Source: a virus
IMG/VR virus record: IMGVR_UViG_3300005856_000020
Span: 1-25,312 of that record
Reading direction: 5' to 3' (one strand)
Length of the DNA: 25,312 bases
Shown here: positions 6,285 to 23,202 of the stretch, one piece after another
How the letters are laid out: each line of letters opens with the position of its first letter
How positions within the stretch are numbered: position 1 is the stretch's first letter
Translations under genes and position numbers: made by a program
Notes under the pieces: model-generated
Seen by the model: only the letters and a program-made list of their open reading frames with translations
Databases searched by the model: none
Told to the model about the DNA's origin: nothing

Positions 6285-6529
6285 TCATTACCTCCGCAAT
6301 ATTTCTGATAAAGCTCTTCAGCCTTTGCCTTGATGCTGTCTTCTCCGTGCATGCTTGCTAAACGGATTGCAGACCTCAGCATGTAGCAGTTGATAGAGCC
6401 ATCTTTGTTTCTATACGGATAGCGTCTGTTTTTCGGGTCAAGAAAGTAGTCCTCTGGGAGTTTCTCTCTTTCGCTTTCTCTATCCAGCCACTTCAGTCTG
6501 TCCGTGGGAATATTGCGAACTTCGGGCAT
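6281..6529 (-). CDS. first gene of head operon, small protein with RRYPYR motif
   Basis: This 82-residue protein contains LPEDYFLDPKNRRYPYRNKD and then a helix (LRSAIRLASMHG ... IKAKAEELYQKYC). The RRYPxx signature recurs in small phage proteins near head genes (DUF6582-like); role unknown. The ATG at 6529 is chosen over 6571 because 6571 lies inside the late-promoter element, and because 6529 is at exactly the same distance from the -10 box as in the two other late operons. No Shine-Dalgarno is possible in the 8 bp available, so the message is probably leaderless. Confidence 0.7.
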   Translation of the reverse strand: MPEVRNIPTDRLKWLDRESEREKLPEDYFLDPKNRRYPYRNKDGSINCYMLRSAIRLASMHGEDSIKAKAEELYQKYCGGNE

Positions 6530-6537
6530 GGTATGGA

Positions 6538-6579
6538 AAGATAGGGCAGGGCAACGCAATGGTTTTCGCATTTTGCGAG
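6538..6579 (-). promoter_or_regulatory. late promoter L1 (head-lysis operon)
   Basis: On the minus strand the element CTCGCAAAATGCGAAAAC (6579-6562) is followed by 18 bp, TATCTT (6543-6538), 8 bp and ATG (6529). The 18-bp element is identical to that of L2, and all spacings are equal in L1, L2 and L3. The last hexamer GAAAAC falls where a -35 box would be; the inner CGCA-AAA-TGCG is an imperfect palindrome, as expected for an activator site. The opposite side faces the HTH gene at 6609. Confidence 0.8.
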
Positions 6580-6591
6580 ATAGTGGGTGCT

Positions 6592-6597
6592 TATATT
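6592..6597 (+). promoter_or_regulatory. possible -10 box of the HTH gene
   Basis: TATATT lies 11 bp before the ATG at 6609, with AGGA just before the start. Its upstream region overlaps the L1 element on the other strand, so the two promoters could share one regulator. No convincing -35 box is seen. Confidence 0.35.
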
Positions 6598-6608
6598 TTT
6601 ACTTAGGA

Positions 6609-6875
6609 ATGGCATTGCTTCACGACCTTGACGATGTGAAGAAGATTGAAAGGGAGCTTGAAAAATACGACAGTCTATTTTTGAAAGCAAGCGAGGTAGC
6701 CAAGCTTTTGGGCGTCTCACGGAGATTAGTGCATTATTACTGTCAGCGTGGAGAGATCTTTGCCGTGAAGTTGAGCCCGCAGAAAGGGAAGAAAGGAAAG
6801 GGGGGGAGCTGGCTGATTTATAAGGAAAGCTTGATAGAGTTTATACTGCGGAGAAATAACTACGAGGTGCTTTGA
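6609..6875 (+). CDS. small HTH DNA-binding protein, candidate late regulator
   Basis: This 88-residue protein has the excisionase/MerR-like winged HTH pattern (about residues 22-82): LKASEVAKLLGVSRRLVHYY (recognition helix near SRRLVHYY), a basic loop KKGKKGKGG, then GSWLIYKESLIEFI. It is the only rightward gene inside the leftward half. Its start is 30 bp from the shared late-promoter element and its 3' end overlaps the end of the early operon by 16 bp. That position between early and late genes suits a late activator (functional counterpart of Mu C, but a different fold) or an excisionase-like factor. The role is inference. Confidence 0.65.
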   Translation: MALLHDLDDVKKIERELEKYDSLFLKASEVAKLLGVSRRLVHYYCQRGEIFAVKLSPQKGKKGKGGSWLIYKESLIEFILRRNNYEVL

Positions 6876-7501
6876 AGTCGGAGATCTTTGTTTTCTTTTA
6901 TTTTGTGTAGTTCGCAGTATGACCTAAGCCTACTGAGAAGTGCCTCTGGGAGTGATTTGGCTAAGTCCGTGAAGCTGTTTGAGGTGATGAACAAATATCT
7001 CTCTTGTAATTCTGCAAAGTATAGGATTTCAATGATTAGTTCAAATCTGGGCTGTGGGAGAGTTGCGATGAGGTCATCTATCATAAAACAGTCGTAGTCT
7101 TTGTATGAGTTGTAAATCGTCTTTAGGTCTGGGAAAGCTACGCAGGAAAGATAGAGAGGGTTTGAGATTTCTCTATACTGAAGAAGCTTTGCTACCTTCC
7201 AAGTGCATGCAATTGATTTTCCCACACCGGGCTTGCCGTCAAGGATGACGCCTTTTTTCTTTGTTTCTCTAATCTTCTTCATAGCTTCGGTCTCTTTTAC
7301 TCCGTTCAATGCGATTTTCAAATACTTCTCAGGGAAGCCGTTTGAAAGCATCGTGGTGTATATCTTTTCCTTGCTAAGTGCCTTGGGAACCACGCTAACC
7401 GCCTTTCCCTCTTCTATCATGAAAAAGCTTTCATACTCGTGGATTTTGGCATTTGGGAATGCTGTTTTTACTTCTTCTATGCTTTTATAAACCTTCCTCA
7501 T
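6860..7501 (-). CDS. DnaC/IstB-like AAA+ helicase loader
   Basis: This 213-residue protein has Walker A GKPGVGKS (89-96), Walker B CFMIDDL (D142-D143), sensor-1 FITSN (171-175) and an arginine-finger candidate LLSRL (R191). This is the DnaC/DnaI-type core that loads replicative helicase. The ATG at 7501 is chosen because GGAGGG lies 6 bp upstream and it overlaps the upstream TGA. It ends the early operon. Mu relies on host DnaC, so a phage-borne loader would let this phage direct the host helicase to transposition intermediates. Confidence 0.7.
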   Translation of the reverse strand: MRKVYKSIEEVKTAFPNAKIHEYESFFMIEEGKAVSVVPKALSKEKIYTTMLSNGFPEKYLKIALNGVKETEAMKKIRETKKKGVILDGKPGVGKSIACTWKVAKLLQYREISNPLYLSCVAFPDLKTIYNSYKDYDCFMIDDLIATLPQPRFELIIEILYFAELQERYLFITSNSFTDLAKSLPEALLSRLRSYCELHKIKENKDLRLQSTS

Positions 7502-7764
7502 CTTTCGCCCTCCCACTCCAAATCCAAAAGCTTCCACATGTAGCCTTCCTCATCACATACTCCTTTTAGTTGAACTGTCGCCCATACTATGCCTAACTCC
7601 TCATTTTTCACTGTTATTCTGTATATCCTTTTTGCGTTGTCTAAAGTTTCCACATCTATAAGCTCCGTCTTGCCTTCCACAAGCTCCTCTTCTGCAATTT
7701 TGCGAAGGACATTTCTGATTGGCTCGGGTCTGTTTATAAGCTTTATGTATAAATCCTTCGTCAT
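7498..7764 (-). CDS. small early protein, unknown
   Basis: This 88-residue protein begins MTKDLYIKLINRPEPIRNVL and has an alpha-beta-beta pattern (ELIDVETLDNAKRIYRITVK, then ELGIVWATVQL). The ATG at 7764 has AGGAGGAG upstream, making the longer 7824 start unlikely. It lies between two putative replication genes with 4-bp or short spacing. No family is recognised. An operator-like site (7692-7705) is inside. Confidence 0.55.
   Translation of the reverse strand: MTKDLYIKLINRPEPIRNVLRKIAEEELVEGKTELIDVETLDNAKRIYRITVKNEELGIVWATVQLKGVCDEEGYMWKLLDLEWEGER
7692..7705 (-). repeat. dispersed palindrome site 5
   Basis: CTGCAATTTTGCGA in an early gene; one mismatch at the right arm edge. Encodes R-K-I-A-E. 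Confidence 0.6.
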
Positions 7765-7774
7765 GGCACTCCTC

Positions 7775-8284
7775 CTACCATGAAAAGTTGTCGTCCTCCG
7801 AGGAGAACGGCTTTTCTTCATCACTCCAGCCCTGCAGGTAGAAGTCTTTACCTCTCCTGTTTTCCTCGCTACTCCATTCTTTGCCTTGCTTTTGCTTTAG
7901 ACTGGGAAGCTGTTGCCTAAACTGCAGTATTCCATTCCAGTCCTTCCGAGAATTTTTGAACACCTCATAGTCCCGCTTCAGGGCTTCTATATCCTCTCCG
8001 TTTCTTTCGTATATCTCCGCCAGTTCCTTGAGATGCTTGCCAATGATGTATTTATAGTCTGTGAACCTGAAACTCTCGGGTGGTCTATTGTCCCACAATC
8101 TCAAATACCAGCCCATTAGGTGTTGGAGTTTTTTCCCTGCTTCTTTGTTTTCCTCCTCTTCCCTTATTTCCGCCTCAAGCCTGACCTTTATTTCCATTAG
8201 CACCTTAAACGCTTCTCTGAAGTTCTTCTGCGCAAACAGTTCCAAAACCCTGTCTATCTTTTTAAGGATTTGTTTCTCCGTCAT
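7775..8284 (-). CDS. early operon protein, possible replication partner
   Basis: This 169-residue helical protein has a charged N-terminal half, a middle segment YKYIIGKHLKELAEIYERNG, and a hydrophilic tail ending in acidic residues and an aromatic (EDDNFSW). Acidic-aromatic tails like this are seen on single-strand-binding proteins and their mimics, but there is no OB-fold signal, so the resemblance may be chance. The location two genes before the helicase loader suggests a replication role. Unassigned. Confidence 0.55.
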   Translation of the reverse strand: MTEKQILKKIDRVLELFAQKNFREAFKVLMEIKVRLEAEIREEEENKEAGKKLQHLMGWYLRLWDNRPPESFRFTDYKYIIGKHLKELAEIYERNGEDIEALKRDYEVFKNSRKDWNGILQFRQQLPSLKQKQGKEWSSEENRRGKDFYLQGWSDEEKPFSSEDDNFSW

Positions 8285-8799
8285 GCTACCGCCCTCCTTT
8301 GTTTTTTCATCTTCTTAAACTTGCTTTTGATAGCTTGAGGGTGGCGGTTTAATTTTTGTGAAAGCTCGTGCAAAATTGCACTCCTGCACCCGTGTTTGGA
8401 AAGGGTTTCCCAGATAAGCTCTTCTTCCCATGGTTCATATCTCCGCCTTTCTTCCATCCCCTTCTCTCTCCGAATTTTTTCTAAGAACCTTTTCCTGTAT
8501 TCTTTTTCGCATTCAGAGGAACAATGCTGGTCTCTGTCTTGGACGGGGATAAAAGGTTTTCCACAAACATTGCATTTCCGCATCACCTTTTCTACAGACT
8601 CTCCCGGGAAGCCAAACACAGGCGGGTCCTCGTTTAAGACTTGGAGGATGCCCGCCTTCACTTGTGCGTTTATCAAGCTTCTTATTCTTTCTTTTGTATA
8701 CTGTTTCAAGTATTTTGGTGGGTTTAGTTCCTTTAACACCATCCACGGAGTAAATACCCGAAGCCTCAGCATTATCCCCCAAATCTTCCCGTCAGTCAT
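8281..8799 (-). CDS. winged helix + zinc ribbon + SANT/Myb-like protein
   Basis: This 172-residue protein has three readable parts: an N-terminal helical region resembling a winged helix (about 5-60), a C4 zinc knuckle (C76, C79, C93, C97; CNVCGKPF ... HCSSEC), and a C-terminal SANT/Myb-like helix set (about 121-162, YEPWEEELIWETLSKHGCRS). This combination indicates DNA binding. It directly follows the MuB-like gene, with a Shine-Dalgarno (GGGAGG) nine bases before ATG 8799; a TTG at 8805 is an alternative. It may modulate transposition or early transcription. Confidence 0.65.
   Translation of the reverse strand: MTDGKIWGIMLRLRVFTPWMVLKELNPPKYLKQYTKERIRSLINAQVKAGILQVLNEDPPVFGFPGESVEKVMRKCNVCGKPFIPVQDRDQHCSSECEKEYRKRFLEKIRREKGMEERRRYEPWEEELIWETLSKHGCRSAILHELSQKLNRHPQAIKSKFKKMKKQRRAVA
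8368..8381 (+). repeat. dispersed palindrome site 6
   Basis: GTGCAAAATTGCAC in the zinc/SANT gene; core exact, outer pair G-C swapped relative to site 1 but still symmetric. Encodes A-I-L-H. Confidence 0.75.
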
Positions 8800-8805
8800 C
8801 TCCAA

Positions 8806-9495
8806 TTACCTCCCGAGGGCTTTGGCTACCTTATCTAATGCCTCCACAGTAGGCTCTATCTTTTGGTTCTTAATTGCTTGTAAGCAAATTGCTGTGTCCA
8901 GTGTAGTCCAGCCTTTTTCTTTCGCAAAATTGAATATCTGCACCGGGTCTGCTTGGATGCGGTATTCTTTGATGAGGTGCGAGATTGTTTCTTGTGTTAG
9001 TGGTTGTAATTCTTTTCTTATAGCAAACCTTTTAAATAGAGAGTGATCGTGAGATGCGAGAAGCTTGGGAGTAGTCTGGTCTCCGAGGAAGAGGTAAGAA
9101 AAGCTGAGTTCCTCATCCTCGCTAAGGTCTTTTAACTCGTTGAGGATGTGCGTTTTTCTTAATAGCCTTTGGGCTTCGTCAAAGATGATGATTGGCTTCA
9201 GGTTGTAGTATAAGATGTGGTGTTTGATAAGGTCTAAAGTAGCCTCATAAGTAGACCTCGCACCGCACCCAAGACTAAAGCCCAATAACCTGTATAACCG
9301 CCCCCTCGTAATCTCTCCATCAGGAGCCTTTATATAAAACACATCTGGCTCCCGCTTTGATATTCTCTGTGCGGAGACAGTTTTACCTGTCCCCCATTTC
9401 CCCCACACAATAGCGTGGAGTGGCATTGCCTGCTCCGTGCGGAGCTTTCTTAGTGCTTGCACAACTGTTGTTATTGTTTGCTCTGCGTGCGTCAT
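8806..9495 (-). CDS. MuB-like transposition ATPase
   Basis: This 229-residue AAA+ ATPase has Walker A GKWGTGKT (32-39) and Walker B IIIFDEAQ (D106, E107). A sensor-like SYLFLGDQTTPKLLA and a C-terminal helical domain follow. MuB proteins coat target DNA, bring it to the transposase and give target immunity. Like the B proteins of B3/D3112-type phages it is shorter than Mu's 312 residues and lacks an N-terminal HTH. Start overlaps the transposase stop by 4 bp, so the two are translationally coupled. Confidence 0.85.
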   Translation of the reverse strand: MTHAEQTITTVVQALRKLRTEQAMPLHAIVWGKWGTGKTVSAQRISKREPDVFYIKAPDGEITRGRLYRLLGFSLGCGARSTYEATLDLIKHHILYYNLKPIIIFDEAQRLLRKTHILNELKDLSEDEELSFSYLFLGDQTTPKLLASHDHSLFKRFAIRKELQPLTQETISHLIKEYRIQADPVQIFNFAKEKGWTTLDTAICLQAIKNQKIEPTVEALDKVAKALGR

Positions 9496-10913
9496 GATTC
9501 ACCTCCTAAAAAGAGTTTTATTGGGTCCAGCTCCTCTTCGGGTTGGGGAGCGGGTTGTGAGCTTGGCTCAGGGCTATTGAATACTTCAAAAAAGTCTGTT
9601 GTGTTTTGTGTTTGTTGTTCTTGCTGTTCAATTTCAATAAGCTCTTCTTTTAGCTTCTTCTTTCTTCTTTCAATTCTTTTCTCTTTGTTTTTGATTTCTT
9701 TAATCTCCGTCGGGTCAAGGCTTGGGACATCTTGAGAGATTAGGCGGGCAATCCCAAGCGGGCGAGTTTCCTTCGCATCCCATACCTCTAAAATGCTTGC
9801 GTTCTCAATGTCTCTATAACAAATAACCTCTGGACTTTTCCTTGTTCTGCCGATCTCCCCAGCCCTTTCCTCAAATGGGAATACAAACTCATATTTCAGG
9901 TTGTCTATTGTTATTGTGTTATTGCGGACTGTCCTTATGAACCTTTCCCTAAACGCTTTTCTGAGTTCATTCTCTCCCATATACCTATACTCAATCGTAG
10001 AGTGTAAATGTTCAGGGACTACTGGTTCGCTGAAGTGCTCAAATCGGTGTTCTGTGCGGTTGTATGTATCTATCGCAGCTTTGAGGGCATCTTCAAAGGA
10101 TGGATGGGTGTTTGTGTAATACCTTAGTAGGTCTTTTAGGTCTCTGAAAGCTCTCTCAATGAGTTTCTGGTTTGGGCTGTATGGCTTGGTGCGTGTAATC
10201 GGGATATTGAGATATTCAAGCCCTCGTGTGATAATCTCTGCCTTAAGGACTGCCTCATTGTCTGTAATTATTCTCTCTGGCAATCCGTGTTCTTTGAAAA
10301 GGGATATTAGGAACTTTGCAACGTCAAGAGAGGAGAAGGCTTTGTTATAGTGCCCCGCTACTGTATCCTCTTTTGCTTTTGCAACCATGCACGAGAGGAA
10401 GCAGCCAGACCACCTCTCCCGCACGGCAAGGATGAAATATCTCTCTCCTTTGAATGTGTAGCCTGTAGCATCTATCTCCCACTCGCCTTTTTCTCTTCTT
10501 TGCTTCCCCTTAGGCTTTCTATATTCCGCAACCTCCGACTTGTCCCTTCGCTTTAGCTCAAGGGCTTCCCAGCTTCCGAACCTCTCTTTTATAACCTCTT
10601 CCAGCCTTCTACGGAATGTCCTCTCGCTTTTGATACCCTTTAACCACAACTCCGGACTAAAAAGCTTGTAAATATACGAAATAGAGAATGTCCTCGTCCG
10701 TCCTTTTTCTTCCTTGCTGGACCTTAGAAGCTCTAAAACCCTGTCCCATATTTCGTCTTGGAATATAGGGTCTTTCCGCTGTTCCTCCGCTTTCAGTGGC
10801 TCCTTCACCCACCTTTCCACCGTACTTTTGGGTATTCCTAAGACTTTTGCGATTCTTCTGATTGGTATACCGAGAGAATAAAGTCGTATGACTTCCATCT
10901 TCCTTTCGTCCAT
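9492..10913 (-). CDS. MuA-class DDE transposase
   Basis: This 473-residue enzyme carries out strand transfer of the phage ends. N-terminal HTH motifs (about 8-36: IRLYSLGIPIRRIAKVLGIP) precede an rve/DDE core with D148 (EIDATGY), D218 (IITDNEA) and E253 (KLIERAFRDLK), with 34 residues between the last two. A beta-barrel-like region follows (about 330-400) and then a basic coiled coil and acidic, Gln/Pro-rich tail. It is about 190 residues shorter than MuA, with less N-terminal end/enhancer-binding sequence. It lies between the ParB-like and MuB-like genes. The probable binding array is at 70-356. Confidence 0.92.
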   Translation of the reverse strand: MDERKMEVIRLYSLGIPIRRIAKVLGIPKSTVERWVKEPLKAEEQRKDPIFQDEIWDRVLELLRSSKEEKGRTRTFSISYIYKLFSPELWLKGIKSERTFRRRLEEVIKERFGSWEALELKRRDKSEVAEYRKPKGKQRREKGEWEIDATGYTFKGERYFILAVRERWSGCFLSCMVAKAKEDTVAGHYNKAFSSLDVAKFLISLFKEHGLPERIITDNEAVLKAEIITRGLEYLNIPITRTKPYSPNQKLIERAFRDLKDLLRYYTNTHPSFEDALKAAIDTYNRTEHRFEHFSEPVVPEHLHSTIEYRYMGENELRKAFRERFIRTVRNNTITIDNLKYEFVFPFEERAGEIGRTRKSPEVICYRDIENASILEVWDAKETRPLGIARLISQDVPSLDPTEIKEIKNKEKRIERRKKKLKEELIEIEQQEQQTQNTTDFFEVFNSPEPSSQPAPQPEEELDPIKLFLGGES

Positions 10914-10923
10914 CTCCGCCCTC

Positions 10924-12546: not shown

Positions 12547-12710
12547 GCTATACACCTCCTGTATGGGTTTTGGTTTTTTGCTTTTGTAAAAAGCGGGAAG
12601 GCGTTGCACCTTCCCAAACTTGGCAACTGATAGGGAGGAAGACCCTTTTACAAAGGCGGGGCTTGGGACCCCGCAAGGAGAGGGAGGGAGGGGGAGGGAA
12701 GCCATGAGCA
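12547..12710 (-). ncRNA. structured intergenic element, possible leader RNA
   Basis: This 164-bp gap between two leftward genes contains GCGGGG/CCCCGC (12656-12661 with 12669-12674), GGGAAGG/CCTTCCC (12595-12601 with 12609-12615) and a longer-range pair TTTGTAAAA/TTTTACAAA (12583-12591 with 12646-12654) enclosing the second hairpin. The loop of that hairpin holds GTTGC (12603-12607), complementary to GCAAC at 12623-12627, so a pseudoknot is possible. No known riboswitch class is recognised. It precedes the parB-like gene's ribosome-binding site and could act as attenuator, processing signal or separate RNA. Confidence 0.45.
12682..12698 (+). other. G-quadruplex-capable run
   Basis: GGGAGGGAGGGGGAGGG has four G-tracts with single-A loops, the most stable class of predicted quadruplex. 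The G-rich strand is the template for leftward transcription into the parB-like and transposase genes. Confidence 0.5.
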
Positions 12711-13402: not shown

Positions 13403-13867
13403 CTACCTCCTCTGAGAGGGTTTTCTCTCCCTCTCGGCTTTTCCCACAAGCTTCTTCTTCAATTCTGCCTTTTTCAATAGCAAGGTGTAAATAGCTTCTT
13501 CCACTTCCTTGAGGTCTTCTTCAATGCTGTTAGTCTCGTCCGCAAGGGCTTCCTCAGCGTCGTTGAGCTCTTTGAGTATTTCTTTAAAAGACACTTCTCT
13601 CTCCGCAGGGTAGGGCTCCAATCTGTATCCGAGCCTATGTGCCATCTCTGCTAACGCCTTGAATGCCAACTCAGGCATGTGTTCGTGGATAATGAGCAGT
13701 GTGTCCATCGCATAGCTGAGGGGATCTCGCCTATGGAAGGGATTGTCCTCATCCATAGACCACGCATAGATTAACTTTTCACTCCTCTGGAGCCTGCTTG
13801 CCAGAGGATAAGGGCTCTTCTTCCGGAGAAACTCCCGGAAGACCCAGTTGAAGCTTGTGCTTCTCAT
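13403..13867 (-). CDS. CII-like regulatory protein, putative
   Basis: This 154-residue protein is the second early gene. Its N-terminal half (about 20-80) reads LASRLQRSEKLIYAWSMDED, then NPFHRRDPLSYAMDTLLIIH. This resembles HTH domains of phage CII/CP76-type regulators, which have an 'R-S-x3-Y-x-W ... NP' pattern. The C-terminal half is a charged coiled coil (about 90-145). Start overlaps the Cro-like gene's stop by 4 bp. Regulation of the lysis-lysogeny choice is plausible; the family call is tentative. Confidence 0.5.
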   Translation of the reverse strand: MRSTSFNWVFREFLRKKSPYPLASRLQRSEKLIYAWSMDEDNPFHRRDPLSYAMDTLLIIHEHMPELAFKALAEMAHRLGYRLEPYPAEREVSFKEILKELNDAEEALADETNSIEEDLKEVEEAIYTLLLKKAELKKKLVGKAERERKPSQRR

Positions 13868-14169
13868 GACTTTATACCTCCTTTATGGGATTTTTTGCTA
13901 CCTTTTTTGCTGGGCGTAGGCTTCTCGCCCTTGTTTTCTACACGCCTTGACGCTAAATAAATCTCATACTGATTCGGGAGGTCATGGATATGCAAAAACT
14001 CTGCAATTTTGCGGATCAAGGGACGAGATATTTTTCTACCGGACAACACAGCAAACAAATAGACATGATTAACATTGAGAATGTTCGCCAACTTGCTAAG
14101 ACTTATTCCTTGTCTTCTACCAGCCTCTTTTACAATATCCTTAATATCCTTGATGAGGTTAGAACCCAT
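13864..14169 (-). CDS. Cro/Ner-like HTH regulator, first early gene
   Basis: This 101-residue protein has an XRE-type HTH (about residues 18-56: GISLSKLANILNVNHVYLFA, then VLSGRKISRPLIRKIAEFL) and a basic tail. It is the first gene after the leftward early promoter and divergent from the repressor, the position of cro in lambda and ner in Mu, so it probably limits early transcription and repressor synthesis. ATG 14169 lies 7 bp after TATAAT with no Shine-Dalgarno, so a leaderless message is likely; a longer frame to 14262 would cross the promoter. An operator-like site (14001-14014) is inside the gene. Confidence 0.75.
   Translation of the reverse strand: MGSNLIKDIKDIVKEAGRRQGISLSKLANILNVNHVYLFAVLSGRKISRPLIRKIAEFLHIHDLPNQYEIYLASRRVENKGEKPTPSKKGSKKSHKGGIKS
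14001..14014 (-). repeat. dispersed palindrome site 8
   Basis: CTGCAATTTTGCGG inside the Cro-like gene, 155-168 bp downstream of its start; one core mismatch. Encodes R-K-I-A-E, as at site 5. Confidence 0.6.
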
Positions 14170-14204
14170 GAGAGATATTATACGCAATTTTGCACAAAAG
14201 TCAA
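14170..14204 (-). promoter_or_regulatory. leftward early promoter
   Basis: On the minus strand TTGACT (14204-14199), 16 bp, TATAAT (14182-14177), then 7 bp to the ATG at 14169. The spacer between the boxes contains the operator-like palindrome GTGCAAAATTGCGT, so a bound repressor would block RNA polymerase directly. Confidence 0.8.
14182..14195 (-). promoter_or_regulatory. operator O1 (dispersed palindrome site 9)
   Basis: ACGCAATTTTGCAC lies in the early promoter spacer, touching the TATAAT box, and overlaps the possible -35 of the repressor promoter. One core mismatch (TGCG-side). Confidence 0.75.
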
Positions 14205-14219
14205 GAGGTATGGTAGGAT
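14190..14219 (+). promoter_or_regulatory. possible repressor-maintenance promoter
   Basis: TTGCAC (14190-14195), 18 bp, TAGGAT (14214-14219) is a weak rightward promoter whose -35 box overlaps the first operator. Such a weak, operator-overlapping promoter is what an autoregulated repressor would use. The inferred +1 would fall near or just after the ATG at 14224, which leaves the true repressor start uncertain. Confidence 0.35.
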
Positions 14220-14223
14220 AGGT

Positions 14224-14237
14224 ATGCAACATTGCAC
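14224..14237. promoter_or_regulatory. operator O2 (dispersed palindrome site 10)
   Basis: ATGCAACATTGCAC: exact arms TGCAA/TTGCA with a CA centre, overlapping the candidate repressor ATG. Centre-to-centre distance to O1 is 42 bp, four helical turns. Confidence 0.65.
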
Positions 14238-14928
14238 CAGCGGAGAGACAGGCAACATCCACGAAAGGCTTAAATACCTAAGGAAAGCTTTAGGGCTATC
14301 ACAGGAAGAGTTCGGGGAAAGGATAGGGAGATCTCTAAGGACTATACAATACTGGGAGGCTGGCACAGTTCAAATCCCCGACACCGCCCTAAAGCTTATT
14401 GCTTCCACCTTCGGCATCTCCTACGAATGGCTAAAAACAGGGCAGGGGGAGATGTGGGAGAGGAGAGAGAAAGCATTATTAGAAGAGTTAGAAACAAAAG
14501 CAAAAGAACTCCTTGAAAAGCTTGTGCGTATTCCAGTTGTGGGGCGTGCGGGGGCAGGGTTCCCAGAAAGCCCCGCAGACATGGAGGCGGTGGGCTGGGT
14601 TCTTGTTAGCAAAGAAACATTCCAGAAAGGTGGGAAGTTCTCAGTTCAAGTGCGTGGAGACAGCATGGAACCAACCCTGCATGATGGTGATTTTGTGGTG
14701 TTTAAGCCTTATGTAGGTGATGGGTCAGATATCCCAAACGGTAAGGTGGTAGTGGTGCGAAATATTGGCGGAGAACTCATTGTTAAAAGGCTCGTAAGGA
14801 TAAACGGTCAGATTGTGCTAACCTCGGACAACCCCAAATATCCACCTATCCCACCTGAAAGAGCTCAGGAAGAAGAGTTGCGGATAGTTGGGGTAGCGAT
14901 TAAAATAGTGAGGGAAATTGAGGTTTAG
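14224..14928 (+). CDS. LexA/CI-type self-cleaving repressor
   Basis: This 234-residue protein has an N-terminal HTH (about 12-48: LKYLRKALGLSQEEFGERIG, then RSLRTIQYWEAG) and a C-terminal S24 peptidase: Ala-Gly cleavage region GRAGAGF (107-113), catalytic Ser147 (RGDSMEP) and Lys188 (ELIVKRL). It should hold the prophage silent and be cleaved after RecA activation. The start is uncertain: ATG 14224 overlaps the second operator, while in-frame ATC 14257 has GGAGAGA 8 bp before it. It is divergent from the Cro-like gene. Confidence 0.88.
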   Translation: MQHCTSGETGNIHERLKYLRKALGLSQEEFGERIGRSLRTIQYWEAGTVQIPDTALKLIASTFGISYEWLKTGQGEMWERREKALLEELETKAKELLEKLVRIPVVGRAGAGFPESPADMEAVGWVLVSKETFQKGGKFSVQVRGDSMEPTLHDGDFVVFKPYVGDGSDIPNGKVVVVRNIGGELIVKRLVRINGQIVLTSDNPKYPPIPPERAQEEELRIVGVAIKIVREIEV

Positions 14929-14951: not shown

Positions 14952-14993
14952 CTCGCAAAATGCGAAAACAATAAAACTCTCTCTCTTTATCTT
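14952..14993 (+). promoter_or_regulatory. late promoter L2 (tail operon)
   Basis: CTCGCAAAATGCGAAAAC (14952-14969), 18 bp, TATCTT (14988-14993), 8 bp, ATG (15002). The 18-bp element is identical to that of L1 on the opposite strand 8.4 kb away. It lies in the 73-bp gap after the repressor gene. Confidence 0.8.
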
Positions 14994-15001: not shown

Positions 15002-15736
15002 ATGAGCACAACTAAGGTCTATACACTTGGCAGAGGAATGCTATTTTTTAAGCCCGTCGGAGAAAACGGCTTTCAAGACTTTGGGAACGTCAAGGACTTT
15101 AGCCTTACAGTTAAGACAGAAAAACTTGAGCACTACTCCACCGCATCGGGTCTAAAAATCAAAGATGCAGAGATAGTAAAAATGCAACAGTTCAACGTTA
15201 GCTTTGAGATTGACGAACTACAGATTGAAACGCTTGAAAAGTTCGCCCTCGCAAGCAGGACAGACACAAACATCACAGCAGGTTCTGTAGTAGATGAGGC
15301 TATAAACGGAGTCAAGCAAGGCTTTTGGTATAAGCTTGCACATGAGAAGATAAAAAGAACTCCCGCACCCACAATCACCAACGACGCAACAACTCCAGCC
15401 ACATACACGGAAGGCACGGACTACATCCTTGACTACGAGGCTGGAGCTATATACATAGTTCCGGGCGGGAACATCGCAGACAACACAAATCTGCGGGTTA
15501 GCTACTCTTACGATGCGATGACTAAGACTACACTTCAAAGCGGACAGAAGTATCAGATAATAGGCACCCTCTGGTTCAAAGGCGACCCACCTAAGGGACA
15601 GGTGTTGGACGTGATCGGAGATGTGTCCTTGCTTCCCTCGGGGGAACTCAAGCTTATTGGCGACGACTGGCTGACTGTAAAGTTTGAGGGAACCTTTACA
15701 AACAAACCTCAGATAATTAGCAGAGGAGTAAGATAA
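15002..15736 (+). CDS. major tail tube protein
   Basis: This 244-residue protein is first in the tail operon, and the order (tube, small protein, frameshifted chaperones, tape measure) is the siphovirus order. Segments such as LGRGMLFFKPVGENGFQDFG, FSLTVKTEKLEHYS and MQQFNVSFEIDEL are typical of phage tail tube proteins. A C-terminal part (YSYDAMTKTTLQSGQKYQII ... DVSLLPSGELKLIGDDW) fits the same beta-sandwich fold. No sheath gene precedes it. The ATG is 8 bp after the -10 box, with no Shine-Dalgarno. Confidence 0.75.
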   Translation: MSTTKVYTLGRGMLFFKPVGENGFQDFGNVKDFSLTVKTEKLEHYSTASGLKIKDAEIVKMQQFNVSFEIDELQIETLEKFALASRTDTNITAGSVVDEAINGVKQGFWYKLAHEKIKRTPAPTITNDATTPATYTEGTDYILDYEAGAIYIVPGGNIADNTNLRVSYSYDAMTKTTLQSGQKYQIIGTLWFKGDPPKGQVLDVIGDVSLLPSGELKLIGDDWLTVKFEGTFTNKPQIISRGVR

Positions 15737-16173
15737 TGGCTTTTGGGTTTTATTTAGACGCAAATCTCACACAACCTGTCAACATGAACACGCCCATCAG
15801 CATAGTGCTAAACACTACGGGAGGCGGTGCGTATATAGACATACAACTTTGGTTCGGCTCTCCAGACACCACCAAAAAATGCCAAGCTGCATCCAACCCG
15901 GGCGTAGACCAAATCACAATCACAATAAACGACACTAATCCCACCATCCACCAAGCAGACCCAAACGTCGGACCCTATTGGGTTTTAGCCCTCAACCAAG
16001 CCGACTTAGCTACAAACCCAAAGAACAACAGCATTGACATCGGCACAGAAGTTCTTGGTGGCGTAGCGAACGCTAAAAGCTTTTGGCTTCGCATATTTGA
16101 ACCCGAACAGGCACCAGCCATTTGGGAGGACTGGGTCCTCACAACCAACGCCATTCTGGAGGTCAACGTATGA
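15736..16173 (+). CDS. tail-region protein, unknown
   Basis: This 145-residue beta-rich protein is rich in Asn, Thr and Pro (NMNTPISIVLNTTGGGAYID). It starts by TAATG overlap with the tail tube gene and ends by ATGA overlap with the chaperone gene. Size, composition and position are compatible with an Ig-like tail decoration or a minor tail protein; no family recognised. Confidence 0.55.
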   Translation: MAFGFYLDANLTQPVNMNTPISIVLNTTGGGAYIDIQLWFGSPDTTKKCQAASNPGVDQITITINDTNPTIHQADPNVGPYWVLALNQADLATNPKNNSIDIGTEVLGGVANAKSFWLRIFEPEQAPAIWEDWVLTTNAILEVNV

Positions 16174-16514
16174 AGTATGAAACTGTGAAAACGGTCAGGC
16201 TTTCCGATGGCCGGGATGTGCAAGTGAGGAGTCTAACATTCAAGGACTTTATACGTTTTTCTGAACTGATTTCACAGATACTAAACGACATCCTCAAAGG
16301 GCATATAAACCCGTCTGCATATTTGCAATCTGCTGTGCCTTTTATGTCCGCCATGACTTATCTATCTCAAAGAGAAATAGAAGAACTCAAGCCCTCCGAT
16401 GCCCTGAAGATTTTCAACGCATGCGTGGATGTGCTGAAGGAGGACACGGATTTTTTTACAGAACTGAAAGCACTGCTTCAAAAAGCGAACGAATTACTCT
16501 CACAGAAATCATAG
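16170..16514 (+). CDS. tail assembly chaperone (gpG-like)
   Basis: This 114-residue product of normal termination has a helical domain (FKDFIRFSELISQILNDILK ... IEELKPSDALKIFNACVDVL). It is expected to hold the tape measure protein during tube assembly. Sequence is not similar to lambda G by eye; the call comes from position before the tape measure gene and from the frameshift overlap with the following frame. Confidence 0.7.
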   Translation: MKYETVKTVRLSDGRDVQVRSLTFKDFIRFSELISQILNDILKGHINPSAYLQSAVPFMSAMTYLSQREIEELKPSDALKIFNACVDVLKEDTDFFTELKALLQKANELLSQKS

Positions 16515-16735
16515 AAGAACTCATCAGTGCAAACCATCAAGTCTTTGATTACCCTCTCCCTTTCGTCCGTGAAATGCTGTCCGCTTACTACAAACGCAAG
16601 ATGCGGGAGTGGAAGGAGTTTGTCTATCTTGTCAAGCTTGCGGTATGGGGTTCAAAGGAAGATATAGACAGCGTGTTTGGAGAAGAAGAAAGCATAGAAG
16701 AACTTTTAGAGGAGTTTGGCGATGGCGGTCAGTGA
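16170..16735 (+). CDS. tail assembly chaperone frameshift product (gpGT-like)
   Basis: A -1 slip at T7 (16451-16457) would fuse the first 96 residues to the overlapping frame that ends at 16735 (YRTESTASKSERITLTEIIE, then a helical domain with VREMLSAYYKRKMREWKEFV). The second frame has no good start of its own until well inside, and its end overlaps the tape measure ATG. Fused chaperones made at a low ratio are conserved in long-tailed phages. Confidence 0.7.
16451..16457 (+). promoter_or_regulatory. -1 ribosomal frameshift slippery site
   Basis: The frame reads GAT TTT TTT ACA, giving the heptamer T TTT TTT. Both tRNAs can re-pair fully after a one-base backward slip. It falls 58 bp before the zero-frame stop, in the usual overlap of the two chaperone frames. 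Confidence 0.7.
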
Positions 16736-19361
16736 GCAGTTAGTTCTTGAGATCAAAGCGGAAGTTGGGCAACTCAAGGCGCAGATTGAAGAGATAAGGA
16801 ACAGACTTCAGGGCATAGACACGAGATGGACTGAAAACTTGCAGAAAAACATAGAACAAAGCACACAGTCAGCTAAACAGCTTGCAAGTCAGTTTGAAAG
16901 CATAGCATCAACTATAAGGACAATAGCATTGTCTTTACCCTTCATGGGCTTCATCAAAGAGGGTATTGAATTCAACAGACAGATAGAACAGGCAAGGATT
17001 GGCTTTGCTGGTATTCTCACATCTATCACACAGATAAGAAACGAACAAGGCAGACTCGTAGAAGGTGCGGAGAAATACGCAAACGCAGTTAAGCTGTCAA
17101 ATCAGCTTCTCAATGAACTGCGTGTTGCAGGATTGCAGACTGTTCTAACCTTCCAAGACCTTGTTGATATAGCGCAAGGCATTATGGCGCCGTTCCTGTC
17201 GGCGGGTGGAGACCTCAAAGAGTTTGCCCAATTCGTAGTGCTACTCTCTAACGCTGTGAGTGCGATCGGCTTACCGATGAATCAGGTAGTCCAAGAGACA
17301 AGAGACCTTTTGATGGGCACTATTGATATGAACTCTCAACTTGCGAGGTCCCTCGGGATTACTAATGAGATGGTCAACAAGTGGAGGGAACAGGGGACGC
17401 TATTCCAAGAACTGACTGCAAGATTGCAGGGTTTTCAATTAGCAGGTAAGGACATAGAAACAAGCTTCACGGGTCTTTTATCCCGTATAAAAGAGATTTT
17501 CCAAGTCTTCGCAGGCATGGCTACCGCAAAAGTCTTCGAGGCTATCAAAAAAGACTTGGATGAGTTTATAGCAAAATTCTTGGTTGTCAAAGACGGCAAA
17601 ATAGAACTCTCCGTGAAAGGGCAAGAACTCGTAGAAAAGCTTTCAGAAACCTTCAGCAATCTCTATCACATCATAAGCATGTTAGCTAAGGCGGTGGGCT
17701 TTATCACTGTAGAGTTCGGCGGGTTTATCACTAAAGCTTTGGAGATATACGTAGTAGTAAAAGCTGTCTCTGCTTTGAAGTCTGCTATTGAAGCCTTAAT
17801 CGGCAGCATAAGAACTCTCGGCACCGTGGGCGGGACAACTATAGCGGGATTAGGTGCTTTGTTCTCACGGCTAAACATCATAGTAGCCGCTGCACTTGTA
17901 AGCTGGAACTTGGGAGAGATGCTCCGGGAGTGGCTGGATGAACAAACTAAAGGAGCTTTCACAAAATGGCTAATCAGAATAGAAACGTTCATAATTGACA
18001 GCATTAACAGGCTAAGGGCACTAATCGGCAAAATCCCGGGCATCGGACGCTTTCTCGGCATCTCGGAGGAGGAACTGCAAGAAAGCTTAAAAATCACTGC
18101 AAAGATGCGGGAGATGGCGGAGGAGGACGCTAAGAGATACAAAGAAACTCAACAAAAAGTAGCACAAGAGATAACCCAAGCAGGAAAAATAACCGCACAG
18201 GCCATAAGGCAGGTCTCTAAACAGCAAATAGAAGAAGTTTTGAAGTCCCTCAAAGATCAGGAGCAAACCATTGCAAAACTGCAGGAGATGAAGCAAAAGC
18301 TAAAGGACAGCTTGTCTCTTGAAGATGTGATGGACGCACTCAAAGATGAGACTAAAGCTTTCTCACAGAAGCTTGAACTGTCTTTAGATACTTCAGATGT
18401 AGAAGACAGAATAGATACTCTCAAGAGAAAGCTTAGAGAACTACAAGACTTACTCAAAGAGAACCTTGAAGATGAAGCACGCAAGCAAGTGCTACGGGAA
18501 ATCTTGCAGACGGAACTTGAGATAGCACAAGCAGCCGTAGAGGGCTATCGGAGAAGAAAGCAGGCACTGGAGGAATTTCTCAGGGATGCATGGAGTAAAG
18601 AACAAGACTACGCACGCAAAGTAGTAGAACTCACAAGAGAACGCAACAATCTACTCGCACAGCTTGAGAAAGAAAGACAAGATCTGCTTAATAAATTCAT
18701 TCCGAAAGAGCTACAGATCAAACTTGGGTTTGCCACACAGCAGGAACCCATCACGCAAGTAGCAAACATCTTGAACCTTCTCCAACAAGCCAGAGATCTT
18801 GCAAGTCAAATCCAGCAAGCAATCGCACAAGGTTTAACACCGCAACAGATAGAAATTCTCAAAATGCAGTATCAAGACTTAGTCCAGCAAATCAGAGACA
18901 ACCTCAAACAGCTGACCCCTGAAGACCTCACACAAGCATTTAAAACCTTTCTCTCTATACCAAAACAAGCGCTCACAGACATGTTCACAAACATCACAGG
19001 AAGCTTTGAAAAAGCTAAAGATATGGTTTCTCAGCTTTCTGAAATTCTGCAGAGAACACCCACGGCGGAGGGTGTGGATTTTGGTAAGCTATTCGGTGCT
19101 ACCTTCGTTGACTCTGTGATGAAGCAACTTCAACAGATACAAGCAAGCGTGTCTGATAGTTTCATACAACAAGCACAACGGCTTGAAGACTTCTATGCAC
19201 AGCAGGTTAGCAAGCTTTCTCAGATGATCATGCAACTTGAGAACTTGAGACCACGCATACAACTTGATCTGTCTGCTGCGGAAGCACAGATACAAAGTCT
19301 GAACGGTAGAAGGATAGTGCTTTATGCGGATGTCGTCGTAGATAGCACTGCTTACAGATGA
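16722..19361 (+). CDS. tail tape measure protein
   Basis: This 879-residue protein sets tail length. It has long coiled coils (N-terminal about 5-75 and most of 465-700), a central hydrophobic Gly/Ala-rich segment (about 340-400, IYVVVKAVSALKSAIEALIG and TIAGLGALFSRLNIIVAAAL) as in other tape measures, and a Gln-rich C-terminal half. ATG 16722 is used; a TTG at 16716 is an alternative. It overlaps the chaperone fusion end by 14 bp. At about 0.15 nm per residue it predicts a tail of roughly 130 nm. Confidence 0.88.
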   Translation: MAVSEQLVLEIKAEVGQLKAQIEEIRNRLQGIDTRWTENLQKNIEQSTQSAKQLASQFESIASTIRTIALSLPFMGFIKEGIEFNRQIEQARIGFAGILTSITQIRNEQGRLVEGAEKYANAVKLSNQLLNELRVAGLQTVLTFQDLVDIAQGIMAPFLSAGGDLKEFAQFVVLLSNAVSAIGLPMNQVVQETRDLLMGTIDMNSQLARSLGITNEMVNKWREQGTLFQELTARLQGFQLAGKDIETSFTGLLSRIKEIFQVFAGMATAKVFEAIKKDLDEFIAKFLVVKDGKIELSVKGQELVEKLSETFSNLYHIISMLAKAVGFITVEFGGFITKALEIYVVVKAVSALKSAIEALIGSIRTLGTVGGTTIAGLGALFSRLNIIVAAALVSWNLGEMLREWLDEQTKGAFTKWLIRIETFIIDSINRLRALIGKIPGIGRFLGISEEELQESLKITAKMREMAEEDAKRYKETQQKVAQEITQAGKITAQAIRQVSKQQIEEVLKSLKDQEQTIAKLQEMKQKLKDSLSLEDVMDALKDETKAFSQKLELSLDTSDVEDRIDTLKRKLRELQDLLKENLEDEARKQVLREILQTELEIAQAAVEGYRRRKQALEEFLRDAWSKEQDYARKVVELTRERNNLLAQLEKERQDLLNKFIPKELQIKLGFATQQEPITQVANILNLLQQARDLASQIQQAIAQGLTPQQIEILKMQYQDLVQQIRDNLKQLTPEDLTQAFKTFLSIPKQALTDMFTNITGSFEKAKDMVSQLSEILQRTPTAEGVDFGKLFGATFVDSVMKQLQQIQASVSDSFIQQAQRLEDFYAQQVSKLSQMIMQLENLRPRIQLDLSAAEAQIQSLNGRRIVLYADVVVDSTAYR
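18271..18284 (+). repeat. dispersed palindrome, near-match
   Basis: TTGCAAAACTGCAG in the tape measure gene; the right arm has one change. Could be chance in a Gln-rich coding stretch. Confidence 0.25.
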
Positions 19362-19371
19362 GGAGGCAGAG

Positions 19372-20091
19372 ATGGCTGTCCGAATAGGAACCCTTACGCT
19401 GGCGGACGCTTGGATCAGAAATAAATGGGGCGGGCGAGCAGACAAGAGGAGACTTCTGACAGACAAGGTGAACTCCCTTGTGCTTCCTACGTGTGGTGTA
19501 AAAATGAGCGGAGAACGTCCTGTTGCTGTGGCGATAGACGGGACGGAATATTACGCAAGATGCATTGAATGGCAACAGAATAAACCACCAACTGCAAATT
19601 TGCAGGTTTTCAGCCCGGGCAAAGCCAAACCCGGAGACGTCATCTTTATAGCAGTAGAGGTAGAGCGATGCACTTTCCGTGCGGTAGATGTGTATGGACG
19701 GACCTATAGCCTGCAGAATTCGGAGACGATCCACGTTCAAGTCAACGACAGCTATGAGATGTATGTGATGAAGTATAGATTTTGCGGAGATGACGGCGAG
19801 GTAGTAAATGAAGGGCTAATTGAAATACCTGTAGAGGCGCAGTTAAGCGATGTGCACGAGAAAGAAATTGTAGTCAACACATGCACTTCTGCACAAGCAC
19901 GTACGCTTGGGCTCATGCTTGGGACAAGGGTAGACATATCGGACGAGGATGTAAGTTTTCCTGATGCATTGATAGTTGAGGTTAACCTTGAATACATCGC
20001 AACAGATATGGTAGATACCGCAACAAGAAGCAAGCAGGGCGTAGACATATATAAAGGCGCAGTAAAGTTTAGGGTGCCAAGGGGGGCATAA
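19372..20091 (+). CDS. distal tail region protein, unknown
   Basis: This 239-residue protein follows the tape measure gene; GAGGAGGCAGAG precedes its ATG. In siphoviruses this slot encodes the distal tail protein. The sequence shows beta-rich domains (PGDVIFIAVEVERCTFRAVD, a Greek-key-like pattern) and several cysteines, but no family motif I can name. A perfect operator-like palindrome (19592-19605) lies inside. Confidence 0.55.
   Translation: MAVRIGTLTLADAWIRNKWGGRADKRRLLTDKVNSLVLPTCGVKMSGERPVAVAIDGTEYYARCIEWQQNKPPTANLQVFSPGKAKPGDVIFIAVEVERCTFRAVDVYGRTYSLQNSETIHVQVNDSYEMYVMKYRFCGDDGEVVNEGLIEIPVEAQLSDVHEKEIVVNTCTSAQARTLGLMLGTRVDISDEDVSFPDALIVEVNLEYIATDMVDTATRSKQGVDIYKGAVKFRVPRGA
19592..19605. 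repeat. dispersed palindrome site 11
   Basis: CTGCAAATTTGCAG, a perfect 14-bp palindrome in the tail protein gene at 19372-20091. Encodes T-A-N-L-Q. Confidence 0.75.
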
Positions 20092-20092
20092 C

Positions 20093-21454
20093 ATGGGTGC
20101 GAGCTATTTCTTTCCTTGCTTAACAGAGGTTTTCTCTGGTAGCGGGACAAAAATCCCGTTGAGCAATATAAGAGAAATCACCATCACGCACCCAACTGGG
20201 TCATTCTTGAAAAATGCAACAGTGCAATTTATTAACACCGATGCCCCGGACGAGATCACTATAAAATTCGGTGAGAAAGTTTTATTCAAAGGAGTTTTAA
20301 AGAGAGCAGACAGGAGGTGCAGCGGAGTAGAGGCTTACTACGAGGAAAAAGTTATAACAGACTTTGCCCCCTCGTTGGTTATCACGAGATGGTTTGTTAA
20401 TACCCTTTTATACTCGGAGACAAAGAAAGCCCTGTCCGACATAGTGCTATACAATAGTCAAGGGAAAGGAAGTGTGTCGTATGATATACCATTTGCTGAC
20501 CCACCGGATGATATAAGTTTCCGCGATCAAGATTCAAACCTGTACCGCTTTCAGGTCCTATACGAGGAGATTGTGGGTTTTGCAGGGGTAATAGCAATAG
20601 GCTATCACGCAGGCTTCAGCGACATAATTCTTGGTCAATACGCAAACGGAAGGCAATTTTTAGAAGCCTTTGTGAAAGCTCAAGCGTCAAGGTATTTAGA
20701 GGGAGAGCTTATTGCACTTAGAGTTGGAATAGTGCTTTTGAGGATAAACAATCAGGATTATGGATGGATGGGAACTATTGTCGCTACAGGACGTATAGCA
20801 GAAGGGTCTCCCGGGCACGTGTATGTAGATGATAAATACGTCATCTACCCAGACGACAGGTACGGAGTAATGCACAAGGTGAGGCTTACTACACTACAGG
20901 ATGTTTTTGCAGTCTTCAATCAACGCTTTGTAGCAGACGAAGGAAAGACAAAGCTAATAGCATTATTAACCGTGCGAAATATAGGTGATCTAATAGGCTT
21001 GCTCCGGGAACTCCCATTAAACCTTTCCGCAACCGTAGAAAACGGGCTCCTCATTATTGACAAGGTTTCGTCTATACGGCAAAAATTCTCCCTTCCACCA
21101 AACGTCGTGTTTGATTTTACGACTCCGATTTTTCGCCCAAATTCTTACGAGGTGGTGTCTGAGGTAGGCGGACTAAGGAACGAGCTACAACTACAAGATG
21201 TAGGTGCCGTAGGGAAATATACATTCAAAACAAGCAGGGTGTTTATTGATGCGTCAGATTGGATGGGGGTTCAGAAACATTTCAGGCTGAACAGTCAAAG
21301 AGGCGGAAGACTAAAAACTGTATTACTTCCGGACATGTTTCAGCATGCATTAGTAGAATTTAACAACACATTATACAGAGTAAGGTCATACACGCATAGA
21401 ATAACAAGAGAGGTAGCAGAAACAGAGATGGAAATAGTATTTGCGGAGGTGTAA
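20093..21454 (+). CDS. putative tail hub / baseplate hub protein
   Basis: This 453-residue protein has features of gp27/gpD-like hub proteins: an N-terminal domain that begins with tail-linked beta strands (IREITITHPTGSFLKNATVQ, FGEKVLFKGVLKRADRRCSG), a middle LYRFQVLYEEIVGFAG, and a C-terminal segment ending TLYRVRSYTHRITREVAETE, the usual last strand that lets the hub bind the tube. It is one of four tail-tip genes after the tape measure. The similarity was read by pattern only. Confidence 0.6.
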   Translation: MGASYFFPCLTEVFSGSGTKIPLSNIREITITHPTGSFLKNATVQFINTDAPDEITIKFGEKVLFKGVLKRADRRCSGVEAYYEEKVITDFAPSLVITRWFVNTLLYSETKKALSDIVLYNSQGKGSVSYDIPFADPPDDISFRDQDSNLYRFQVLYEEIVGFAGVIAIGYHAGFSDIILGQYANGRQFLEAFVKAQASRYLEGELIALRVGIVLLRINNQDYGWMGTIVATGRIAEGSPGHVYVDDKYVIYPDDRYGVMHKVRLTTLQDVFAVFNQRFVADEGKTKLIALLTVRNIGDLIGLLRELPLNLSATVENGLLIIDKVSSIRQKFSLPPNVVFDFTTPIFRPNSYEVVSEVGGLRNELQLQDVGAVGKYTFKTSRVFIDASDWMGVQKHFRLNSQRGGRLKTVLLPDMFQHALVEFNNTLYRVRSYTHRITREVAETEMEIVFAEV

Positions 21455-21456
21455 AC

Positions 21457-22293
21457 ATGGGAAGCATAGAGTTCTACACTTATTGCCCCGACGAAGGGGT
21501 AGTAAAAATTTATTTCGCAGGAATTCCTCCGTTAGGGTCCACTCCAGAGGAGAACCGCATTGTGCTTCCAATCGCCTGTAAGAGAACAAGACCACCAGTG
21601 GATCCGTCCGTTGGGTATAAGCTCCGTCGGATATACTCCTACAAACCACACTACGAACTCTTAATCCCAATAGGTGGGGTTGCGGTCAATATGTTAGTTT
21701 ATCGCTGGGAGAGCATCGGATTCTGGTGGACGTGGAAGGAATACAAACAAAGGGCATTTCCCTTCACTATCTATCAGTTTCCAGCGTGGGATGCACCATG
21801 GGTTTACGAGGATTGGCAAAGGATCCCAAACCTCCTGTTCCTTTCAACGACAACGTTCATGCCACCGTTCGCAGACATGTCTAACCCACGAGATCAAGAC
21901 TTTCAGCTACACGTGTATTTAGTTATATATAAAGCGTCCCAAGACAGGTTTTTATACTCCGAATACCTCCTGCAGGGTCCCAAATGGAAAAAGGACTGGT
22001 TCGGGAGTATTGCAGAAGTGATGAAGTATTGGGAAGAAGTCCGGGAGACTCTACTGTTGTTCCATGACGCAGCCGTTAACGGTGAAGAAATTGCTATCTA
22101 CCCCCACCCGCTTGGAAGGATAGACGACTGGTGGGAAGGTCAATACAGAGTTCTAAAGGTGATGAGATATGAATGGTTTAAAGCGATACAGGTCGGGCAG
22201 AACTCCGCCCCAGAAGAACCCCAGAATTATTACATGCAGTTCATCGTGCAGGACAGCTCAAGAGACGCCATGGCGGTTATAGTGGGGGGGTGA
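21457..22293 (+). CDS. tail-tip protein, Trp-rich, unknown
   Basis: This 278-residue protein has an unusual aromatic content (WESIGFWWTWKEYKQRAFPF, then WDAPWVYEDWQRIP). GGAGGTGTAAAC gives a good ribosome-binding site. It lies between the hub and the beta-repeat protein. Such aromatic-rich proteins at the tail tip may bind polysaccharide or the cell surface, but no fold is identifiable. Confidence 0.55.
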   Translation: MGSIEFYTYCPDEGVVKIYFAGIPPLGSTPEENRIVLPIACKRTRPPVDPSVGYKLRRIYSYKPHYELLIPIGGVAVNMLVYRWESIGFWWTWKEYKQRAFPFTIYQFPAWDAPWVYEDWQRIPNLLFLSTTTFMPPFADMSNPRDQDFQLHVYLVIYKASQDRFLYSEYLLQGPKWKKDWFGSIAEVMKYWEEVRETLLLFHDAAVNGEEIAIYPHPLGRIDDWWEGQYRVLKVMRYEWFKAIQVGQNSAPEEPQNYYMQFIVQDSSRDAMAVIVGG

Positions 22294-22296
22294 TAA

Positions 22297-22938
22297 ATGA
22301 TAAAAAAACTCATACCTTTCTTTATAAGAGAAAATAAAGCAGAGCTATATGACTTCAGCGCCCCTCCGAAATACTGGGATGTCATCCCTGATGGCGACAG
22401 CAGATATATAGTGTATCTGTCTGGCATCCCAATTTACTACACAGACGTAAACGGGCATTTAGACTATACATACCCGCCATTCAGAAAAGATGTAAGCGCC
22501 ATCAGGGTGTTCTACACGCCACCCATCCAAATAAGCACCACACCATACACCAAAGTCTCTGCGGCGTTGCGTATATTCGTATCAAACACCCACTACGCCC
22601 ACACCTATCTCCGTATCAAAACCGCAGGACGGATTACTGCTCGTATCCGCATTCAAGCAGAAAATTACATAGCAGCACGGTTAAGAATTGAGACCCGCGG
22701 ACCAGTTCAGGCACAGTTGAGCATCATAACAATCTACAATACAACAAGAGGGAAGGCTAAGCTCCGCATAGTAGCAGAAAATAGCAATTACTCGTCCGCC
22801 ATGATCAGAATAAAGACAGAAAACATTCCGATACCTCGGGCGAAATTACAAATCTATATAAAATCAAATAAGCGAAAAATCTCCATGCCCGACTACTACG
22901 CCTTTTACGGCATCCAAACCTTCGGTTTCCTTCCGTAA
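22297..22938 (+). CDS. short-repeat beta protein, possible tail fibre/tip
   Basis: This 213-residue protein consists, from about residue 66 to 190, of some 8 degenerate 12-17-residue repeats built around A-x-(L/I)-R-I (SAALRIFV, HTYLRIKT, TARIRIQA, AARLRIET, QAQLSIIT, KAKLRIVA, SAMIRIKT, RAKLQIYI). Regular alternating hydrophobic-basic strands suggest a beta-solenoid or beta-prism spike. It is the last tail gene and so a candidate receptor-binding element. The family was not recognised. Confidence 0.6.
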   Translation: MIKKLIPFFIRENKAELYDFSAPPKYWDVIPDGDSRYIVYLSGIPIYYTDVNGHLDYTYPPFRKDVSAIRVFYTPPIQISTTPYTKVSAALRIFVSNTHYAHTYLRIKTAGRITARIRIQAENYIAARLRIETRGPVQAQLSIITIYNTTRGKAKLRIVAENSNYSSAMIRIKTENIPIPRAKLQIYIKSNKRKISMPDYYAFYGIQTFGFLP

Positions 22939-22942
22939 GAAC

Positions 22943-22984
22943 CACGCAAAATAGGAAAACTCTCTAAGCCATCGATTCTATATT
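22943..22984 (+). promoter_or_regulatory. late promoter L3 (packaging operon)
   Basis: CACGCAAAATAGGAAAAC (22943-22960), 18 bp, TATATT (22979-22984), 8 bp, ATG (22993). The element matches L1/L2 at 15 of 18 positions and all spacings are identical; the mismatches destroy the right arm of the CGCA-AAA-TGCG palindrome, so it may be a weaker or half site. Confidence 0.75.
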
Positions 22985-22992
22985 CCATCACT

Positions 22993-23202
22993 ATGCGTAT
23001 TACTGCCAAGCGTGTATGTGAGTTTTTACGCAGGATGAGGGAACTGCAAAATTGCAGTTTTCGGACAGAGAGACTGTCTGAGAAGGAAAAACTCATAGTT
23101 CTCACGATACAACTCACAGACGCAGAATACGAAGGAGTAGGTATAAACGCCCGCTTGGCTTTGGAGGATTTGATGCGAAAGGTTCTGGAGGTGGAAGAGT
23201 GA
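22993..23202 (+). CDS. first gene of packaging operon, unknown
   Basis: This 69-residue basic, helical protein (MRITAKRVCEFLRRMRELQN ... LTIQLTDAEYEGVGINARLA) has its ATG 8 bp after the L3 -10 box and no Shine-Dalgarno. The operator-like site 23044-23057 lies 50 bp inside the gene, close enough to act as a roadblock. Function unknown. Confidence 0.6.
   Translation: MRITAKRVCEFLRRMRELQNCSFRTERLSEKEKLIVLTIQLTDAEYEGVGINARLALEDLMRKVLEVEE
23044..23057 (+). repeat. dispersed palindrome site 12
   Basis: CTGCAAAATTGCAG with flanking A/T symmetry (16-bp total arms), 50 bp into the first packaging-operon gene. Identical to site 1. Encodes L-Q-N-C. Confidence 0.75.

Follow-up and report, generated by a model that had tools for sequence, protein, structure and literature searches.

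A shared promoter layout at three late operons of a presumed transposable phage, and a small winged-helix protein as its candidate reader

How could the head and lysis, tail, and packaging genes of one phage, arranged in three operons on both strands, come under common control? The question is raised by the IMG/VR viral record IMGVR_UViG_3300005856_000020, which was analyzed in its entirety (25,312 bases, referred to below as the window). The phage is best explained as temperate and transposable, with a Mu-like organization. Between its late blocks lie a leftward early operon, which encodes a cro-like gene (13864-14169), a ParB-like protein, a DDE transposase, a MuB/TniB-like ATPase and a DnaC-like loader, and a rightward gene for a CI-like S24 repressor (14224-14928). 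The scans made of this phage, which uses the DDE transposase, turned up no tyrosine integrase. Here, we describe the promoters of the three late operons, their counterparts in related phages, and the protein that probably acts on them.

Layout of the three late promoters

The promoters L1, L2 and L3 all read 18-bp element, 18 bp, TATNTT, 8 bp, ATG, with everything from the 18-bp spacer to the ATG exact in each. At L1, on the minus strand, the element CTCGCAAAATGCGAAAAC (6562-6579) is a near-palindrome that lies between the operon and a divergently transcribed gene for a helix-turn-helix (HTH) protein, and a -10-like TATCTT (6538-6543) stands 8 bp before the ATG at 6529. The identical element recurs on the plus strand at L2 (14952-14969), followed by TATCTT (14988-14993) 8 bp before the ATG at 15002. 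At L3, also on the plus strand, the element is CACGCAAAATAGGAAAAC (22943-22960), with three mismatches against CTCGCAAAATGCGAAAAC, and TATATT (22979-22984) precedes the ATG at 22993 by the same 8 bp. The sequences between element and -10 are unrelated among the three. The original prediction had described this layout, the identity of the L1 and L2 elements, the 15/18 match at L3 and the unrelated spacers, and its coordinates and letters proved correct throughout.

The gene contents downstream agree with the head-lysis, tail and packaging operons that had been claimed. The L1 operon (356-6529, minus strand) begins with the gene at 6281-6529 and includes a scaffold-like gene and the major head protein (4797-5675) along with neck and lysis-like genes. 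The L2 operon (15002-22938, plus strand) encodes the major tail protein (15002-15736), the tape measure (16716-19361) and further tail genes, and the L3 operon (22993-25312, plus strand) consists of small genes, a putative TerS (23794-24306) and TerL (24296-25312), the last of which runs off the record. Within the window, three matches to the element with up to three mismatches were observed versus 0.04 expected, and none of 100 shuffles reached three; the full architecture was likewise matched three times, versus none in 100 shuffles. A weight matrix built from relatives only ranks L1-L3 first, at 21.8, 21.8 and 16.8, followed by a site at 16.7; the margin of L3 over that fourth site, which has neither a -10 nor an ATG, is nil.

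What kind of RNA would such promoters make? The -10 lies only 8 bp before the ATG, and therefore, if that -10 is used, the RNA would start at or next to the start codon. Moreover, the first genes after the three late promoters lack a Shine-Dalgarno sequence (+0.3 to +3.5 kcal/mol). Nearly all other genes have a strong one, such that the count is 0/3 for the late first genes versus 34/36 for the other genes counted (Fisher p 0.001). A -10 a few bases before the ATG together with the lack of a Shine-Dalgarno sequence is the pattern of a leaderless message, and the late mRNAs are probably of this kind. This reading, like the second class of element described below, goes beyond the original prediction.

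The early cro-like gene also lacks a Shine-Dalgarno sequence and starts 7 bp after TATAAT (14167-14182), and its mRNA is probably leaderless too. Its promoter, TTGACT-16-TATAAT (14177-14204, minus strand), ends 7 bp before the start at 14169 and contains an operator-like GTGCAAAATTGC in its spacer. The CI/Cro control region (14170-14245) contains two operator-like TGCAAnnTTGCA sites. The operator sequence is strongly different among close relatives (CATCCCAGATGGGA, ACACGGAACTGTGT-like and ACGCAATATTGCGT), which look, by these differences, as if they formed separate immunity groups.

Conservation among relatives and a second class of element

The original prediction had read the three sites as a late regulon with a control site over the -35 position, and had suggested a search of the full phage and related phages for the element under a spacing rule. 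An architecture-core scan that covered 2.9 million viral contigs found 33 stretches, 30 of them from relatives of this phage; the other three, with no open reading frame and no related gene, are chance matches. The same geometry is thereby found in about 30 related contigs, the element is tied to the starts of late operons, and the late promoters of this type (class I) have no TTGACA, all of which supports a late regulon. The early promoter, for its part, reads TTGACT-16-TATAAT.

The class I promoters are most conserved in the element and the -10. Across 33 distinct promoters of L1, L2 and L3 homologues, the element averages 1.67 bits of information and the -10 averages 1.74, versus 0.71 for the spacer and 0.30 upstream; the letters GCAAAAT, GAA and TAT-TT vary hardly or not at all. 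Element and ATG are 32 bp apart in 30 of these promoters and 31 bp apart in 3. Among homologues having upstream DNA, the core is present in 13/13 for L1, 11/11 for L2 and 12/12 for L3, and in the more distant L2 of contig L060, where 7 of the 18 element bases differ, GCAAAATNNGAA and the 18/18/8 spacing are kept. Several late operons are found under one control site at a fixed distance from the -10, as in a late regulon, and the signature of element, 18, TATNTT, 8 and ATG would serve to single out this phage group in metagenomes.

Relatives with different, myovirus-like late genes lack the class I element and have instead an unrelated one, class II (KTGMAATCTKTGCTTGAA), in nearly the same geometry. 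Sites of the form [GT]TG[AC]AATCT[TG]TGCTTGAA-like are found where the head, baseplate and tail operons start, and also ahead of the HTH gene. At the head operon, the class II promoter reads element, 18 bp, CATCTT, 8 bp, ATG, with 32 bp to the ATG in 13/13; the baseplate promoters have 30-32 bp, and in G007 the start codon is more distant from some of the class II promoters. Because TTGA occurs within class II sites near a -35 position, their dependence on an activator may be weaker. The matches listed by a class II pattern scan were mostly chance and are left out of the counts. AT-rich TTTGCAAAATTTGCAAAA repeats occur in three class II relatives (L107:1318-1343, L108:1321-1338, L109:950-1036).

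The two classes also differ in the HTH protein that they encode. The window's HTH gene (6609-6875, plus strand) specifies a protein of the Pfam HTH_17 family, HTH-I, and class II phages encode a different HTH_17 protein, HTH-II. Counted on the DNA at hand for each locus, the class I core is present in 18/18 HTH-I contigs and 0/19 HTH-II contigs, and the class II core in 19/19 HTH-II contigs and 0/18 HTH-I contigs, although these contigs are related and the counts are not independent events. In the tree of MuA (the transposase), labels I and II are interleaved, with four changes, and a single change was found in 0/200 bootstrap trees. Because the transposase tree mixes both classes, the element does not follow the early genes; rather, its type follows the late arm with its HTH gene. 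That gene adjoins a late operon, and there could be some other reason why it moves together with the late genes. One contig combines the two types: G009 (IMGVR_UViG_3300042858_000010), the full contig to which L011 belongs, carries HTH-I together with a class I L1 site on one arm and class II sites on the other. It is likely a chimeric assembly or a dead recombinant, since genes for tail tube and tape measure are missing and there are two lysis cassettes.

Wherever the sample is traceable, the relatives come from hot springs. Some were traced to a Yellowstone spring of 55 C and pH 9.0 (sample 3300006065; PMC5498146), and L060 is from hot-spring sediment (PMC9241837). The one genome that gave a match contains L060, a phage contig placed in a Bathyarchaeota MAG; this contig is very likely misbinned and was set aside as a guide to the host. 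A PDB search with the sliding clamp of a relative gave no pointer to the host, and a transposase search of 50,697 phage records gave no match. In one relative, a complete bacterial-type sliding clamp (DnaN) gene (L009:13821-14912) lies beside the DnaC-like loader and HTH genes.

The HTH_17 protein and rival readings of the element

Which protein might read the element? The original prediction had suggested the product of 6609-6875 as the binder, and that suggestion is strengthened because, in two phage classes, HTH type and element type go together perfectly in the counts above. HTH-I is a putative winged-helix protein of 88 amino acids, encoded divergently from L1 with the L1 element in between. 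It scores 45.1 bits for HTH_17 (cut-off 27) and stays below the cut-off for MerR (PF00376; 23.1 versus 28.2); for the excisionase domain TIGR01764 (cut-off 28.8), HTH-I is below at 19.5 and HTH-II above at 46.4. The predicted structure of HTH-I (pLDDT 81) comes closest to the Pukovnik Xis and BldC-DNA structures, with Z 7.3, rmsd 2.0 and 56 aligned residues for Xis (4j2n) and Z 7.0, rmsd 1.4 and 51 aligned for BldC-DNA (6amk). A Z under 8 is weak when taken alone; here the fold match agrees with the sequence match, and the modeled fold is Xis- or BldC-like. The 18-bp length of both elements would suggest two bound subunits, by analogy with BldC. A 9-bp direct repeat is weakly visible in the element, a hint that fell short of significance in most versions: among periods 5-12, period 9 ranks first in class I and second, after period 12, in class II, with shuffle p from 0.03 to 0.9.

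Judging from sequence, we think it probable that HTH-I activates the late operons by binding to the element over the -35 region. The small phage-encoded protein, of Xis/BldC type, would occupy the 18-bp element at about -48 to -31 and take the place of the absent -35 hexamer. Host RNA polymerase with its main sigma factor would then use the TATNTT -10 and begin RNA at the ATG or no more than a few bases from it, such that the head/lysis, tail and packaging operons would be switched on at once as leaderless mRNAs. The near-palindromic L1 site would also overlap the promoter of the divergent HTH gene in its upstream part, and through this shared site the protein probably controls its own gene. 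Since the related RdfS activates some promoters and reduces its own (PMC11963761), a dual role at L1, activating and self-reducing, is plausible by analogy. Regulator and elements would have been exchanged together between phages, with the geometry kept.

The least certain step in this scheme is activation rather than repression. Perhaps HTH-I does bind the element but represses, with the late operons off until the protein is removed or titrated. Such a role would fit a site that covers the -35 region and, at L1, a near-palindrome shared with the divergent HTH gene, and RdfS is known both to activate and to repress (PMC11963761). However, class I promoters have no recognizable -35 hexamer, which suggests a need for help and not for a block; moreover, a separate CI-like repressor is already present in the phage, and the class II element also stands upstream of the HTH gene in the same direction. 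Considering these points together, we find repression unlikely, though it deserves to be kept in mind. Less likely again is that the element forms the -35 part of a promoter for an alternative host or phage sigma factor, with the HTH protein a bystander. A bipartite promoter would be expected to keep its two parts at a constant distance, like the 18 bp between element and -10, but an 18-bp box is long for a -35, element type tracks HTH type, and two unrelated elements in phages whose early genes are interleaved on the tree would call for two sigma factors; the scans made revealed no dedicated sigma-factor gene.

If the CI- and Cro-like proteins are at hand, could the late element be their operator, through which late genes are kept silent in lysogeny? 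In the window, the early operator GTGCAAAATTGCG does resemble GCAAAATGCG, but early operators differ widely among class I phages and the late elements do not. The early-promoter spacer has AACATCCCAGATGGGG in G008 and ACACG(G/A)AACTGTGT-like sequences in G003 and G005, all of which have class I late elements; with early operators varying between these phages and the window while the late element stays constant, the CI/Cro operator was rejected as very improbable. The identical letters at L1 and L2 might also be taken as copies of a mobile or duplicated DNA segment that plays no regulatory role. We rejected this idea as scarcely credible: the spacers are unrelated, while the element, the -10 and the distances are kept in many phages. 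Activation by HTH-I is the reading carried forward below.

Relation to known systems

Late control sites common to several operons are already well known, as are small phage activators. In phage Mu, a small activator serves several late promoters whose -35 is poor and whose activator site lies near that region, and activation by HTH-I would resemble the Mu C/Mor system (PF08765) in each of these respects. The phage described here differs in its probably leaderless mRNAs and in its activator: a Mor/C protein was rejected for this role, as there is no family member in the window and none over the cut-off in 12 relatives. The element is also unlike the known Mu C site. The MerR family has a related winged-helix fold, but HTH-I has no effector or coiled-coil domain, and whereas MerR sites lie inside a 19-bp spacer, the element here lies upstream of the spacer to the -10.

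The closest solved folds include BldC-DNA complexes from Streptomyces, in which a dimer takes two 9-bp direct repeats, one per subunit (PMC5859096), a likeness that extends to the 18-bp length of the element. BldC, however, is a cellular protein that regulates development, HTH-I differs from it by an N-terminal helix and a longer wing, and the repeat structure of the element is not significant here. With Xis and other recombination directionality factors (Pukovnik Xis, 4j2n; RdfS, PMC11963761; phage 186 Apl, PMC7498355) HTH-I shares the HTH_17 winged helix; the differences are the DDE transposase of this phage and the location of the sites, which stand at late promoters at a fixed spacing to the -10.

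How far might this arrangement extend? Tentatively, and with somewhat less than even confidence, we propose that thermophilic transposable phages use Xis/BldC-type proteins as dedicated late activators, with two-subunit 18-bp sites, leaderless mRNAs, and regulator-site pairs that are naturally orthogonal and swapped between phages. If this is true, these phages hold a compact late-gene circuit with two such pairs set in one promoter frame, a means to study how Xis/BldC-like proteins contact RNA polymerase, and they begin their late operons from probably leaderless mRNAs, with Shine-Dalgarno sites serving the other genes of each operon. A non-exhaustive literature search turned up no account of this phage group and none of a late activator of Xis/BldC type. 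Set against the systems compared here, what is probably new is the class of regulator, the likely leaderless design, and the exchange of regulator and site within a fixed promoter frame.
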